A program made the translations under genes and the position numbers. DNA of 64,000 bases from Clostridia bacterium (lineage in GTDB: Bacteria; Bacillota; Clostridia; Christensenellales; UBA3700). Numbering within the stretch: position 1 is the first letter of the stretch; each line of letters starts with the position of its first letter. The notes beneath the pieces are model-generated. The model did no database searches. It saw only the letters and a program-made list of their open reading frames with translations, and was not told the DNA's origin. Where the stretch lies: NCBI GenBank assembly GCA_029061605.1, contig JAIDRT010000035.1, forward strand, positions 17,132 through 81,131. Reading direction: 5' to 3'. Shown here one piece after another: positions 13,587 to 26,464 of this stretch.

Positions 13587-14147
13587 CTAATTAAATACGC
13601 TTGTTATGCTATTGTGATAGCAACTGCCTCTAGTAAGTGTGACGTCTCTTCTGTTGATTACTAACGTCTCTCCAAATTCATAATTCATTACCCATTTGGG
13701 GGCAATAACGACAAATATTCTATGTAAGACATCATCAGTGTTAGGCTCATCTAGAATAGGCGAGTTTGTCTCAAAGATAGGATAGAACTTATGATCCTTG
13801 ATTGCCAAATTCTTGTATTCGATATTCTCATCAGATGACGCAAACATAAAATTTATCAGTAAAATGACGTTGTATTCAAAATACTCCTCTGTATATCCTT
13901 CGCCTAAGATATTAAATTTCTCTAAATCTGCTAATGACGTAACTATTTCGATTTTGAAATCATAATTCAAATTCTTTACTTCACCACATTGCCTTATTGC
14001 ATTGGAAAAAATTGTATCATACTGAGGCATTACGTTTTGACTGCTGTCGTCCTTATCCTTTGGACAATTGCAACAACCAACCAACGCGCTTATCATAATG
14101 GACAACAATATGACTGCTGTCAGACTTTTTATAATATTTTTCTTCAT
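13587..14147 (-). CDS. Small lipoprotein, tandem paralog 1
   Basis: LVGCCNC lipobox. Near-identical core NLNYDFKIEIVTSLADLEKFNILGEGYTEEYFEYNVILLINFM shared with the next gene. Confidence 0.8.
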   Translation of the reverse strand: MKKNIIKSLTAVILLSIMISALVGCCNCPKDKDDSSQNVMPQYDTIFSNAIRQCGEVKNLNYDFKIEIVTSLADLEKFNILGEGYTEEYFEYNVILLINFMFASSDENIEYKNLAIKDHKFYPIFETNSPILDEPNTDDVLHRIFVVIAPKWVMNYEFGETLVINRRDVTLTRGSCYHNSITSVFN

Positions 14148-14329: not shown

Positions 14330-14893
14330 TTATTTAAACACGGTCGTTATACTATCGTGATAACGACTGCCTGCAGTGACGTCTCTTCTGTTGATCACCA
14401 ATATATCTCCAAATTCATAATTTTTTACCCATTTGGGGGCAGTAACGACAAATATACTATGACCTCCTTCATCATCAGTGCTAGGCTCATTCGGAAGACG
14501 CGAGTTTGTCTCAAAGATAGGATAAATTTTACGATTCTGAATAGCCAAATTTTTGTATTCAATATTCGTATCAGATGACGCATACATAAAGTTGATCAAC
14601 AGAATAACGTTGTACTCAAAGTACTCTTCTGTATATCCTTCGCCTAAGATATTAAATTTCTCTAAATCTGATAATGACGTGACTATTTCTATTTTGAAAT
14701 CATAATTCAAATTCTTTACTTCGCTCATACTACATTGCCTTATTGCATTGGAAAAAATAGTATCATATAGAGGCATTACGTTTTGACTGCTGTCGTCATT
14801 ATCCTTTGTGCAATTGCAACAACCAACCAGCGCAATTATCATCACTGATAACAATGCAAGCGCAATCATACTTTTTGTTATTTTAGTTTTCAT
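14330..14893 (-). CDS. Small lipoprotein, tandem paralog 2
   Basis: LVGCCNC lipobox. Highly similar to 13587-14147, including the upstream sequence. Confidence 0.8.
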   Translation of the reverse strand: MKTKITKSMIALALLSVMIIALVGCCNCTKDNDDSSQNVMPLYDTIFSNAIRQCSMSEVKNLNYDFKIEIVTSLSDLEKFNILGEGYTEEYFEYNVILLINFMYASSDTNIEYKNLAIQNRKIYPIFETNSRLPNEPSTDDEGGHSIFVVTAPKWVKNYEFGDILVINRRDVTAGSRYHDSITTVFK

Positions 14894-15066: not shown

Positions 15067-15462
15067 TTACTTCTTGGGCGTCATATCAAAACTGTCGGGA
15101 TAAAGTTCGCTTATATTGGTAGTGACGACGTCGCCATTGTTGTTGGACACAAATATCACGAGGTCGTTGCAAAACTCTTTGATAAACTGTCTAACTATTC
15201 CGCAAGGATAAGGCATACTCTCGCCCGAACTGACTATTGCCATTGCCAAAAAACCTTTTTCACTGCCTGCAATCGCCGTGCCCATTGCGACTTGCTCCGC
15301 GCAGATCGTAGCGCCGTAACTGACGTTTTCGATATTGCAACCTACGTAAATCTTTCCGCTTTCGCCCATAACTGCGCAACCTATCTTGTATCCCGAATAC
15401 GGCGCGTGCGCATTCTTCATTACGAGCAACGCATTCTCAAGTAATCTCTGTCTTTGCATCAT
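15067..15462 (-). CDS. cdd: Cytidine deaminase family protein with a non-canonical Zn site (PCGIV)
   Basis: GCNIENVSYGATICAEQVAMGTAI and MPYPCGIVRQFIKEF; family length and order. Confidence 0.85.
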   Translation of the reverse strand: MMQRQRLLENALLVMKNAHAPYSGYKIGCAVMGESGKIYVGCNIENVSYGATICAEQVAMGTAIAGSEKGFLAMAIVSSGESMPYPCGIVRQFIKEFCNDLVIFVSNNNGDVVTTNISELYPDSFDMTPKK

Positions 15463-15477
15463 AGTGGTAATCCTCCT

Positions 15478-16458
15478 TTATCTCCAAAATACGCTGAGAT
15501 CCTCTCTGCTCAAGACTCCCCAACGCTCGTTTTGTCTCACGATTGCTTTTCCGTCGGAAAACGGCGTAGCCACGTCATAAACAAAATCAATGATTTGATT
15601 GCCGTCTTGGTCTATATATCCGCTCTTTTCTCCCACAGTGACTGACGCAAGCCCTTCGCTAAATGACGTCGCGCAGTCAAACTTAAAATCTATGACGAGA
15701 TTATTTTGTCTGTCGATATATCCCAACTTGCCATCCTTTTCAACACAGGCCCGCTCTTCAAAAAATCCAAACGCTTCTTCATAAGACGGCGGAACAATTA
15801 CGTTGCCCTTCCAATCCTTGTATCCCCATTTACCTTTACGACAAAACTTGATAAGGCTCTTTTCCGTGAGCGGCGGTCTCTCGACTTTTTCGACTACAGG
15901 GCGCTGTCTTTTTCCCATAAGTATCTCTGCCCAGGTCATACCCGCGTACATCTTGCTAAGATACTCGTTGAGAGAATCATTCTCACTCTTTTGCTTTTTG
16001 TTTTTATTATCCCTGCGCTCTGGCTTGCCCAAATTGTTTTGAGACTTGTCTCGAGAGAAATTCTGCTGAGCGTTCTTGCCGTTGCGAGCGTCGTTTTTAT
16101 CCTTTTTCTCACCGCCGTTTTGATTGTTCTTGGCAGGTTGTTGAGGTTGAGGCGCTTCGTCTTGAGCGAACTTAACACCGAATTTTGCCATAGCCTTGGA
16201 TATCTCTATGCAATTCTTTTTGCCTATATTCTGGATTTTGTACATTTGCTGAAAAGTCCTGCACGCAAGATCTGCCACTATATTTATTCTGCCCGCTTTA
16301 AGAGCGTTGTAAGTGGCTTCGCTCAATTCCAAATCTTCAATAGGACGCGTAAGATCTTTTCCCTTATCTTTGTTGGTCTCCAAGATCTTTTGAGCGGCGC
16401 CTTGAGCGTCGAACTTTTTTTTATTATTATTTTTGTGATAAAATTTATTTTTTGACAT
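15478..16458 (-). CDS. RpoA alpha-CTD-like domain + charged linker + WG-repeat protein
   Basis: N-terminal LTRPIEDLELSEATYNALKAGRINIVADLACRTFQQMYKIQNIGKKNCIEISKAMAKFGVKF resembles alpha-CTD. C-terminal WG-type repeats GKWGYKDWKGNVIVPPSYEEA / GKLGYIDRQNNLVIDFKFD / KSGYIDQDGNQIIDFVYD. Confidence 0.82.
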   Translation of the reverse strand: MSKNKFYHKNNNKKKFDAQGAAQKILETNKDKGKDLTRPIEDLELSEATYNALKAGRINIVADLACRTFQQMYKIQNIGKKNCIEISKAMAKFGVKFAQDEAPQPQQPAKNNQNGGEKKDKNDARNGKNAQQNFSRDKSQNNLGKPERRDNKNKKQKSENDSLNEYLSKMYAGMTWAEILMGKRQRPVVEKVERPPLTEKSLIKFCRKGKWGYKDWKGNVIVPPSYEEAFGFFEERACVEKDGKLGYIDRQNNLVIDFKFDCATSFSEGLASVTVGEKSGYIDQDGNQIIDFVYDVATPFSDGKAIVRQNERWGVLSREDLSVFWR

Positions 16459-16651
16459 ATCTTCCTTAAATTTTAAGTATGCTTATCTTCAAAATACGTA
16501 TCGTTATTTCGCGCTTGACAACGATACTAACACCGTTGATAGCGAGTTATTGCATATATTTTAGCATAAATACAAATAATTTTCAATCTTTCTTAATTAT
16601 ATTTCTTGATTATGCTGTATTTTTTTGTTTTAATTTTTAAATATAGTGTGT

Positions 16652-16657
16652 TATAAT
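16652..16657 (+). promoter_or_regulatory. Extended -10 box (TGTTATAAT), 6 nt before ATG
   Basis: tgtgTTATAATactcttATG; no RBS. Confidence 0.55.
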
Positions 16658-16663
16658 ACTCTT

Positions 16664-18409
16664 ATGAAACGAAAAATCTTTGGGTTATCCTTAATATTTT
16701 GTTTAGTGCTCGTCTTGTGCTTTGCAAGCGTATTTTCTATGCGCAACGTAGCAAAGGCGGAAAACGTCGACGTACTCGTCTCATTGACAAACGACAGTTT
16801 GCTGACTGCCTACGACGATTATTTTGCATACACCAATTCAAAGGGCATTTATCTCGCCAAAGACAACAAATTGTTGAGTTTTGAAGAAAAGAGCGATTTC
16901 GACGGTTTTTTGGATATTGCAATGAATTCCACTCACATACTTGCGCTCGCGCAAAAGGGTGAACAAAAGTATCTCTGGGCATACGAGTACAACGATATGC
17001 GCATTGCAAAAATCAACTTTGCTCTCAATGATCTGCACGTGGAATATCTCGTGGGGATATATGCAAACGAAGATGGATTCTATGCCTTAGAAACCAACAA
17101 GTTGATACATATTTCGCTTGACCCTCCTGAAGTGATTTCGCAATACTTCAATTCAAACACTGACTGGACTTTAAATCCCGCTTACATAGACATTCAAGAT
17201 TTTGCCGTGCTCAACAATATACTCTATTGTATTTTGGACGGAGATTTCTATGCCATCTCAGAGCAGAATTTCCACTACCCCGACCTGTCGAAATTCCTCA
17301 AACGCAGCGGAGACTATATAGGCGTGAGCGTAGCAGACGACAGGATATTGCTTTTGAGCGCAAGCGGCGTATATGAATACAACAGCGCAGACTCCTCGAT
17401 TTCAACGTTGGTAGTCGACGGACTTGATAGCAACAGCAAGATCTGCTGGGCTTACGACAGCCAAAACGATATAAGATACGTCTACACAAAATCTAATCTA
17501 AACGCCGTCAATATGTATGTCTACACCACAGGCAATCTTGAGTACTACGGTTGTTTTGACAACAACGTATATACACATCCGACGGAGTTTGATATTGTCA
17601 AACTTTATAAAACAGGCGCAGACGTGACGCTATATTCTTCGCCGAGACATCTGCAGAGAATGGGAATAATTCCGCAAAACAGATACTTCATTGCTTTGAG
17701 CGAAAGAGACGACTTTATATACGTATATTATCACGACACAAGCGAAGACAAAACTCAATACGGCTATATCAAAAAATCAGCGGCAATAACTTTGTGTCCG
17801 GCAGAGAAAGAAGGCTTACTTGGACCGTTTGCCCAGCCGTTGCACGAAAATACGCCAATTTACAAATATCCATTTGAAGGCTCGGGAAGCGAAAAGATTC
17901 TTGACGCGTCGATATTTATGCAACTGACTGTGATTGACAACGTGGGACAAGACGGCAACTTTACTTGGGGCTGGTATAAAGTAGGTTATGTCGACAACAG
18001 CGGCAAAGCGCAGTACGGATACGTCAAGACGCAAAATCTTTCGCCGTATACCCAACTCACTGCGCCGTCGCTTTCTAAGTCAGTCAAGTTGACTTCAAAG
18101 AAACTTGGACAGTATATCACACTCTACGCCCTGCCTTTTGAAAGCGAGGAAGACGCAATAGAGATAACTCAACTCCCCGAAGGCACTTCAGTGTATCTCA
18201 AAGAAAAATTCAACAAAAAAAGCGAATGGACGGCAGTATATTACGAGGGCAAGACGGCATACGTAAGAACTGAAAATATAAAAGCGTCGGGACTTACATC
18301 TTGGCAACTTGCTTTGGTAATAACTATTCCCTGCGTGGTAGTCGCCATAGTAATAGCGGTTGTTTTGATAGTAGTCGCAAAAAATAAAAGACTCGCTTAT
18401 AAGTCCTAG
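16664..18409 (+). CDS. Membrane-anchored secreted protein, propeller-like N-terminal part and SH3-like C-terminal repeats, C-terminal TM
   Basis: Signal peptide KIFGLSLIFCLVLVLCFASVFSMRNVAKA; two GYVKTQNL/AYVRTENI SH3-like ends; C-terminal TM WQLALVITIPCVVVAIVIAVVLIVVAKNKR. Confidence 0.7.
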   Translation: MKRKIFGLSLIFCLVLVLCFASVFSMRNVAKAENVDVLVSLTNDSLLTAYDDYFAYTNSKGIYLAKDNKLLSFEEKSDFDGFLDIAMNSTHILALAQKGEQKYLWAYEYNDMRIAKINFALNDLHVEYLVGIYANEDGFYALETNKLIHISLDPPEVISQYFNSNTDWTLNPAYIDIQDFAVLNNILYCILDGDFYAISEQNFHYPDLSKFLKRSGDYIGVSVADDRILLLSASGVYEYNSADSSISTLVVDGLDSNSKICWAYDSQNDIRYVYTKSNLNAVNMYVYTTGNLEYYGCFDNNVYTHPTEFDIVKLYKTGADVTLYSSPRHLQRMGIIPQNRYFIALSERDDFIYVYYHDTSEDKTQYGYIKKSAAITLCPAEKEGLLGPFAQPLHENTPIYKYPFEGSGSEKILDASIFMQLTVIDNVGQDGNFTWGWYKVGYVDNSGKAQYGYVKTQNLSPYTQLTAPSLSKSVKLTSKKLGQYITLYALPFESEEDAIEITQLPEGTSVYLKEKFNKKSEWTAVYYEGKTAYVRTENIKASGLTSWQLALVITIPCVVVAIVIAVVLIVVAKNKRLAYKS

Positions 18410-25460: not shown

Positions 25461-26414
25461 TTATTCATCCTTGTCCTTGAGTTTAAGACCAAGGTCGTCA
25501 ATTTTCTTCATAACTTCTTCGAGCGACTTCTTACCGAGATTTCTCACTTTAAGCATATCGTCTTCAGTTTTTTCCGTCAAATCCTTGACAGTGTTGATAC
25601 CCGCTCTTCTCAAGCAGTTGTAAGATCTTACTGACAAATCCAAATCTTCGATTGCCATTTCGTAAATCTTTGCCTGTGATTCGTTGTCTTGAGAGATAAG
25701 TATCTCTTTTTCTGCCATATTGTCAACAAGTTTTACAAAAATACCAAGGTGATCATTCATAATCTTGGCAGCCAAACTGATGACCTCATTTGGCGTCGAT
25801 GTACCGTTGGTCGCAACGTCAATGGTGAGTTTGTCAAAATTGATGTCTTGACCTTTTCTGGTGCTCTCTACCTGATAACTTGCTGCGATAACAGGCGTGA
25901 AGATAGCGTCTACCGGAATATATCCTATACCTTGCTCCTCATCCTTGTTTTCGCTTGCGCCTACGTAGCCTCTGCCTACGCCGATATAGATCTCCATCTC
26001 AATGCTTGCGCCGTCCTCAAGAGTACAAATCTCAAGTTCGGGATTGAGGATCTCTATGTCGTCGCTGTGAGATATATCTGCAGCGGTAACTACGCCGGGC
26101 GTATATTTGTTGATAGTACAAAGTTGTTTGAAGTTCTTATCTTCGGTATGAGCCTTTACTGCAAGTCCCTTGATATTGAGAATTATTTCAGTAACGTCTT
26201 CTTTGATACCGGGGATAGCGGTGAACTCGTGTTGAACTCCATTTATTCTAATACCGACTGGAGCAGCGCCCGGCAAAGCGCCCAAGAGAATTCTTCTAAG
26301 GCTGTTGCCGAGAGTAGTACCAAATCCGCGCTCCAACGGCTCGACGGAATATCTGGTTTTTCTACCCGGCTCCATATCTTCTTTATTGATATTTGGTTTT
26401 TGAATTTCTATCAT
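25461..26414 (-). CDS. rpoA: RNA polymerase alpha subunit
   Basis: VEPLERGFGTTLGNSLRRILLGALPGAAPVGIRINGVQHEF; alpha-CTD AIEDLDLSVRSYNCLRRAGINTVKDL. Confidence 0.97.
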   Translation of the reverse strand: MIEIQKPNINKEDMEPGRKTRYSVEPLERGFGTTLGNSLRRILLGALPGAAPVGIRINGVQHEFTAIPGIKEDVTEIILNIKGLAVKAHTEDKNFKQLCTINKYTPGVVTAADISHSDDIEILNPELEICTLEDGASIEMEIYIGVGRGYVGASENKDEEQGIGYIPVDAIFTPVIAASYQVESTRKGQDINFDKLTIDVATNGTSTPNEVISLAAKIMNDHLGIFVKLVDNMAEKEILISQDNESQAKIYEMAIEDLDLSVRSYNCLRRAGINTVKDLTEKTEDDMLKVRNLGKKSLEEVMKKIDDLGLKLKDKDE

Positions 26415-26464
26415 TGTTAGCCTCCTATTCAATGTTCAATGACCGAGACTGTCACAGCGTATTA

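Follow-up and report, generated by a model that had tools for sequence, protein, structure and literature searches.

A conserved Christensenellales protein fuses an alpha-CTD-like domain with an altered DNA face to WG repeats

The C-terminal domain of the alpha subunit (alpha-CTD) is the principal part of bacterial RNA polymerase for contacting activators and UP elements. R265 of the E. coli alpha-CTD makes contact with the UP element minor groove (PMC3828302). The domain is already known outside RpoA, as one domain of PglW from type 2 BREX has been described as structurally similar to the CTD of the RNA polymerase alpha-subunit (PMC12839542), and it is also seen in orphan proteins of the Bacillota and in small phage proteins. 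The WG-repeat family PF14903 appears in a table of repeat families that had no known structure and were modelled (PMC8078820), and our literature search found no functional paper on WG repeats. The search likewise found no paper on an alpha-CTD/WG fusion, on its near-universal presence in one bacterial family or on a rewritten DNA face of this kind, and the combination seems to be undescribed.

The window (the whole stretch of 64,000 nucleotides of Christensenellales DNA that was analysed) encodes a protein with this combination, and the features of the locus are collected in Table 1. The original prediction of an alpha-CTD-like domain fused to WG repeats is borne out by Pfam, with PF03118 (RNA_pol_A_CTD) matching amino acids 29-91 at 51.3 bits (cut-off 23.8; E 9.5e-14) and PF14903 (WG_beta_rep) matching three stretches at 107.3 bits (cut-off 25.6; E 3.5e-31), and the order of a Lys/Asn/Gln-rich linker followed by the WG part is as had been claimed. 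These are the sole significant Pfam families in the 326 amino acids. The alpha-NTD (PF01000, PF01193) is absent, and because of this the protein should not enter the polymerase as a subunit, judging from its sequence. NCBIfam rpoA models match the same stretch only, with scores far under their cut-offs. No signal peptide is evident, and an Rfam search near the gene matched no RNA element. The cytidine deaminase gene lying downstream was found at just 10 of the 80 related loci. Further along the same strand, two ORFs of 186 and 187 amino acids (13587-14147 and 14330-14893, minus strand) resemble a tandem duplication and have lipoprotein-like starts; Pfam gave no significant match for either.

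Table 1. Coordinates of the alpha-CTD/WG gene, its parts and its neighbours in the window
Feature	Positions	Strand	Basis
ORF with alpha-CTD-like domain and WG repeats, 326 aa (ATG at 16458, stop at 15478, read from sequence)	15478..16458	-	ORF listing, translation, Pfam
Basic N-terminal tail, aa 1-35 (MSKNKFYHKNNNKKKF...)	16354..16458	-	orthologue charge comparison
Alpha-CTD-like HhH domain, aa 36-98	16165..16353	-	Pfam, AlphaFold, Foldseek
K/N/Q-rich linker, aa 99-200	15859..16164	-	AlphaFold model mostly low confidence
WG-repeat domain, aa 201-326	15481..15858	-	Pfam, AlphaFold
Shine-Dalgarno-like AAGGAAG of the alpha-CTD/WG gene	16461..16467	-	read directly from sequence
Sigma-70-type promoter-like site, TTGAAA-17-TAAAAT, TG ahead of second hexamer	16558..16586	-	consensus match only
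Cytidine deaminase gene, downstream, 15 nt from the alpha-CTD/WG ORF	15067..15462	-	
Divergent neighbour, predicted membrane propeller/SH3 protein gene	16664..18409	+	HMM, AlphaFold
rpoA, reference alpha-CTD for comparison	25461..26432	-	Pfam

An AlphaFold model was built from 58 orthologues and compared with the PDB by Foldseek. The mean pLDDT is 80.6, with the alpha-CTD part at ~90, the WG part at ~96 and most of the linker below 60, the linker having short predicted helices at amino acids 160-170 and 176-181. The predicted first domain superposes on solved RNA polymerase alpha-CTDs with TM scores of 0.90-0.93 and rmsd values of 0.7-1.1 Å (PDB codes 8y5t, 0.90; 1lb2, 0.90; 1z3e, 0.92; 9dvt, 0.93), the matched structures including the Bacillus subtilis domain in complex with Spx. 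On this model the first domain is assigned the alpha-CTD fold, in agreement with what had been expected, a PF03118 match and the fold of an alpha-CTD having been found rather than those of a generic HhH domain. The WG-repeat domain is modelled as four three-stranded units compared with the three repeats recognized by Pfam, and this predicted part gives only loose propeller/hemopexin-like matches in the PDB with large rmsd values.

The genome holds two PF03118 loci, rpoA and the alpha-CTD/WG gene. Within the family of the window's genome the protein is matched at E <1e-30 in 43 of 46 genomes, the three genomes with no match being 90%, 69% and 88% complete. A profile made from 23 orthologues and used at a threshold of 1e-30 finds matches in 88 of the 297 genomes sampled from the order Christensenellales, one of which (G642) has the WG part only; carriers number up to 87 of 297 in seven families, an upper figure as several of the matches lie largely in the WG part. 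In a sample of 391 genomes from the class, the matches listed from outside the order are confined to the WG part or to the linker plus WG part, the window's genome alone passes 1e-40 among 300 genomes of the phylum, and neither sample contains a full-length match outside the order. PF14903 is found in all 58 aligned orthologues and PF03118 at E ≤1e-3 in 53 of them, and the fusion is therefore not a chance one. Values of dN/dS, calculated with the three closest relatives used (L059-L061), are 0.05-0.08 for the whole protein, 0.03-0.07 for the alpha-CTD part, ~0.026 for the WG part and 0.09-0.15 for the linker, more distant pairs being left out because their synonymous sites approach saturation. 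The conserved gene is under purifying selection, and the acidic WG domain is the most conserved part of the protein.

The alpha-CTD-like domain aligns over its whole length with the alpha-CTD of the window's rpoA, as originally proposed, the alignment being free of gaps, and the replacement of the VRS..N DNA-contact segment by EAT..N is also confirmed, Ala-48 standing at the position of R265 (E. coli numbering is the residue number plus 217). Comparison of the 58 orthologue domains with 19 RpoA sequences of the same order, and then with 35 RpoA and 12 other orphan alpha-CTDs, illustrates how far this face has been altered. All 35 RpoA have Arg at position 265, and 10 of the 12 other orphan domains have Arg or Lys there, whereas in the orthologues no column is more variable (A11 N9 E9 K8 R6 and others). 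Asn is retained at 268 in 11 of 58, and C269 and S299 are lost; these four residues together with E261 show little or no variation in RpoA from the order. The family lacks the R265/N268-type DNA-contact set, and on these substitutions the protein would not be expected to recognize UP elements in the normal manner. Other features are kept in the 58 orthologues, with basic residues of the hairpin at 291 (57), 297 (58) and 298 (58), an aromatic residue at 290 in every sequence, Arg at 284 in 53, D280 kept and E302 mostly so. The median net charge of the domain is +4 compared with 0 in RpoA; 54 of the 58 orthologues have a basic N terminus, and the linker and WG part have median net charges of +6 and -3, respectively. 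Mean identity to RpoA is 32%, and in a test for recent rpoA duplication the 58 domains form one split in the FastTree topology with weak support (0.265). As a separate observation, one genome (G819, locus L185) holds a second full-length rpoA-like gene (315 amino acids) beside its main rpoA.

Fifty-eight of the 80 related loci carry, within 4 kb, a gene that was missed by the original prediction, which had reported the domain fusion. This family was found by HMM in 59 of the 80 loci, the count within 4 kb being 58 once one misjudged ORF is set aside, and an automatic "convergent" call at locus L137 was not counted as it arises from an oversized ORF; the loci were collected by similarity and are related, so these counts are not independent. 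The AlphaFold model of the neighbour has a helix at each end, the C-terminal one long and predicted to be a membrane anchor, together with a propeller-like region rich in beta structure and SH3-like modules, and SH3_3 matches 20 of 26 family members in Pfam. The 58 pairings comprise 38 divergent pairs less than 300 nt apart, 8 divergent pairs at 2.5-3.8 kb, 8 with the neighbour co-directional upstream and 4 with it co-directional downstream, some loci having the two genes separated by 1-3 nt. Because the pairing is kept in three gene orders, a functional link is suggested between the two genes that goes beyond a shared promoter. The pairing is not universal, as several genomes of the order either have the two genes on different contigs or have no neighbour found at 1e-12, and lower-scoring members of the neighbour family also turn up where no alpha-CTD/WG gene was found. 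A TATAAT sequence (16653-16664, plus strand) ends ~5 nt 5' of the likely ATG of the neighbour (16664), a spacing which, as a reading of the sequence only, would leave its transcript leaderless or nearly so.

The reading we prefer, tentatively and at somewhat less than even confidence, is that the protein is an adaptor in the cytoplasm, binding nucleic acid with no recognition of UP elements, holding a partner on its WG domain and sharing a process with the membrane protein. The HhH domain derived from the alpha-CTD, with basic disordered segments on either side, would bind DNA or RNA via the phosphate backbone, using the kept basic hairpin and the extra positive charge for contact rather than the R265-dependent recognition of UP elements. 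Sequence-independent binding of nucleic acid is favoured because the basic hairpin is kept, positive charge has been gained and the tails are basic. The acidic WG domain would bind a protein or ligand partner, and the protein would tie this partner to nucleic acid and take part in whatever process the linked membrane propeller/SH3 protein serves. Several points weigh against an adaptor of this kind. We infer nucleic-acid binding from charge and hairpin conservation, and net charge and a kept hairpin can also help to stabilize the fold or to bind an acidic protein partner. The neighbour has a short predicted cytoplasmic tail only, so that direct contact is not evident, and in part of the order its gene is not linked or was not found.

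A free-standing alpha-CTD mimic acting on transcription had been put forward originally, and of this the alpha-CTD homology stands but not a straight copy, given the unconserved residues 265, 268, 269, 299 and 261. Such a domain would compete with or replace the polymerase alpha-CTD at sigma, NusA, Spx-like factors or activators, making the protein a transcription factor that acts in trans and signals the state of its WG domain. The nearest solved folds are indeed alpha-CTDs, the Spx-bound B. subtilis domain among them, and the window's member has acidic residues at 258, 259 and 261 (Glu-41, Asp-42 and Glu-44), but 35 of the 58 orthologues have Gly at 261, positions 267 and 269 are variable, the charge of the 285-288 region is unlike that of RpoA and the alpha-NTD is missing, and we consider this alternative unlikely. 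The looser proposal, that the domain binds another nucleic acid or a protein, is the one that we favour.

A pure protein-protein scaffold, with the HhH domain turned into a protein-binding module as other HhH domains are, the WG domain as a second docking site and no nucleic acid involved, would account for the loss of most DNA-contact residues, for the WG domain being the part most conserved and for the pairing with a membrane-protein gene. It sits poorly with the basic tails, the basic linker and the +4 charge of the domain, all retained family-wide, and seems to us rather improbable. Chance resemblance, in which a generic HhH domain has been misread as an alpha-CTD, draws on a few family members that score under the PF03118 curated cut-off and is rejected as wholly improbable, HHH_5 giving no match in a protein with a strong PF03118 match, a fold match at ~1 Å and PF03118 in nearly all orthologues.

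The cytoplasmic adaptor may be extended, quite speculatively and with a good deal of doubt, to an undescribed envelope-to-nucleic-acid module of the Christensenellales in which an extracytoplasmic propeller/SH3 protein anchored in the membrane and a cytoplasmic protein with the alpha-CTD reused as a transducer or tether would link the state of the cell surface to the nucleoid or the transcription machinery. A lineage in which a detached alpha-CTD with a rewritten DNA-reading face is kept under strong constraint in nearly every genome amounts to a natural experiment on the capacities of the fold. Present in a gut bacterium and in related organisms, the protein provides a testable entry point for WG repeats, and the conserved pairing with a membrane-protein gene is a second, independent lead to the pathway.

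Among the known systems, PglW matches the alpha-CTD/WG protein weakly over the alpha-CTD part (amino acids ~24-155), the limited extent of this match leading to rejection of a BREX PglW fragment; PglW has 1400-1600 amino acids with kinase, wHTH and other domains, none of which is present in the 326 residues here. Many unrelated WG proteins (PF14903) across the class and on plasmids match the WG part, their matches stopping short of the alpha-CTD part, and phage proteins named RNA polymerase, alpha subunit, C-terminal (e.g. A0A6J5L490) likewise have a free-standing alpha-CTD fold but with 111-135 amino acids are too short for a WG domain. A mobile or phage origin was rejected, the phage and plasmid matches being separate WG or alpha-CTD pieces with none covering 80% of the protein; a PHROGs search with the protein gave no match. 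Orphan proteins of other Bacillota (L186-L195) similarly place an alpha-CTD outside RpoA, single or in tandem; the large ones have, by eye, sigma region 4-like segments and no WG repeats, with 10 of 12 domains having Arg or Lys at 265. Six of the large ones (L186, L188, L191, L192, L194 and L195) have one to several alpha-CTD-like domains and, after these, segments resembling by eye sigma region 4 and winged-helix repeats. The alpha-CTD of RNA polymerase itself differs in being joined to an alpha-NTD, in conserving R265, N268, C269, S299 and E261, in its neutral charge and in having no WG fusion, and shares with the alpha-CTD/WG protein the sequence family, the predicted fold, the HhH hairpin NxGKK with basic residues at 291, 297 and 298 and, for the most part, E302.
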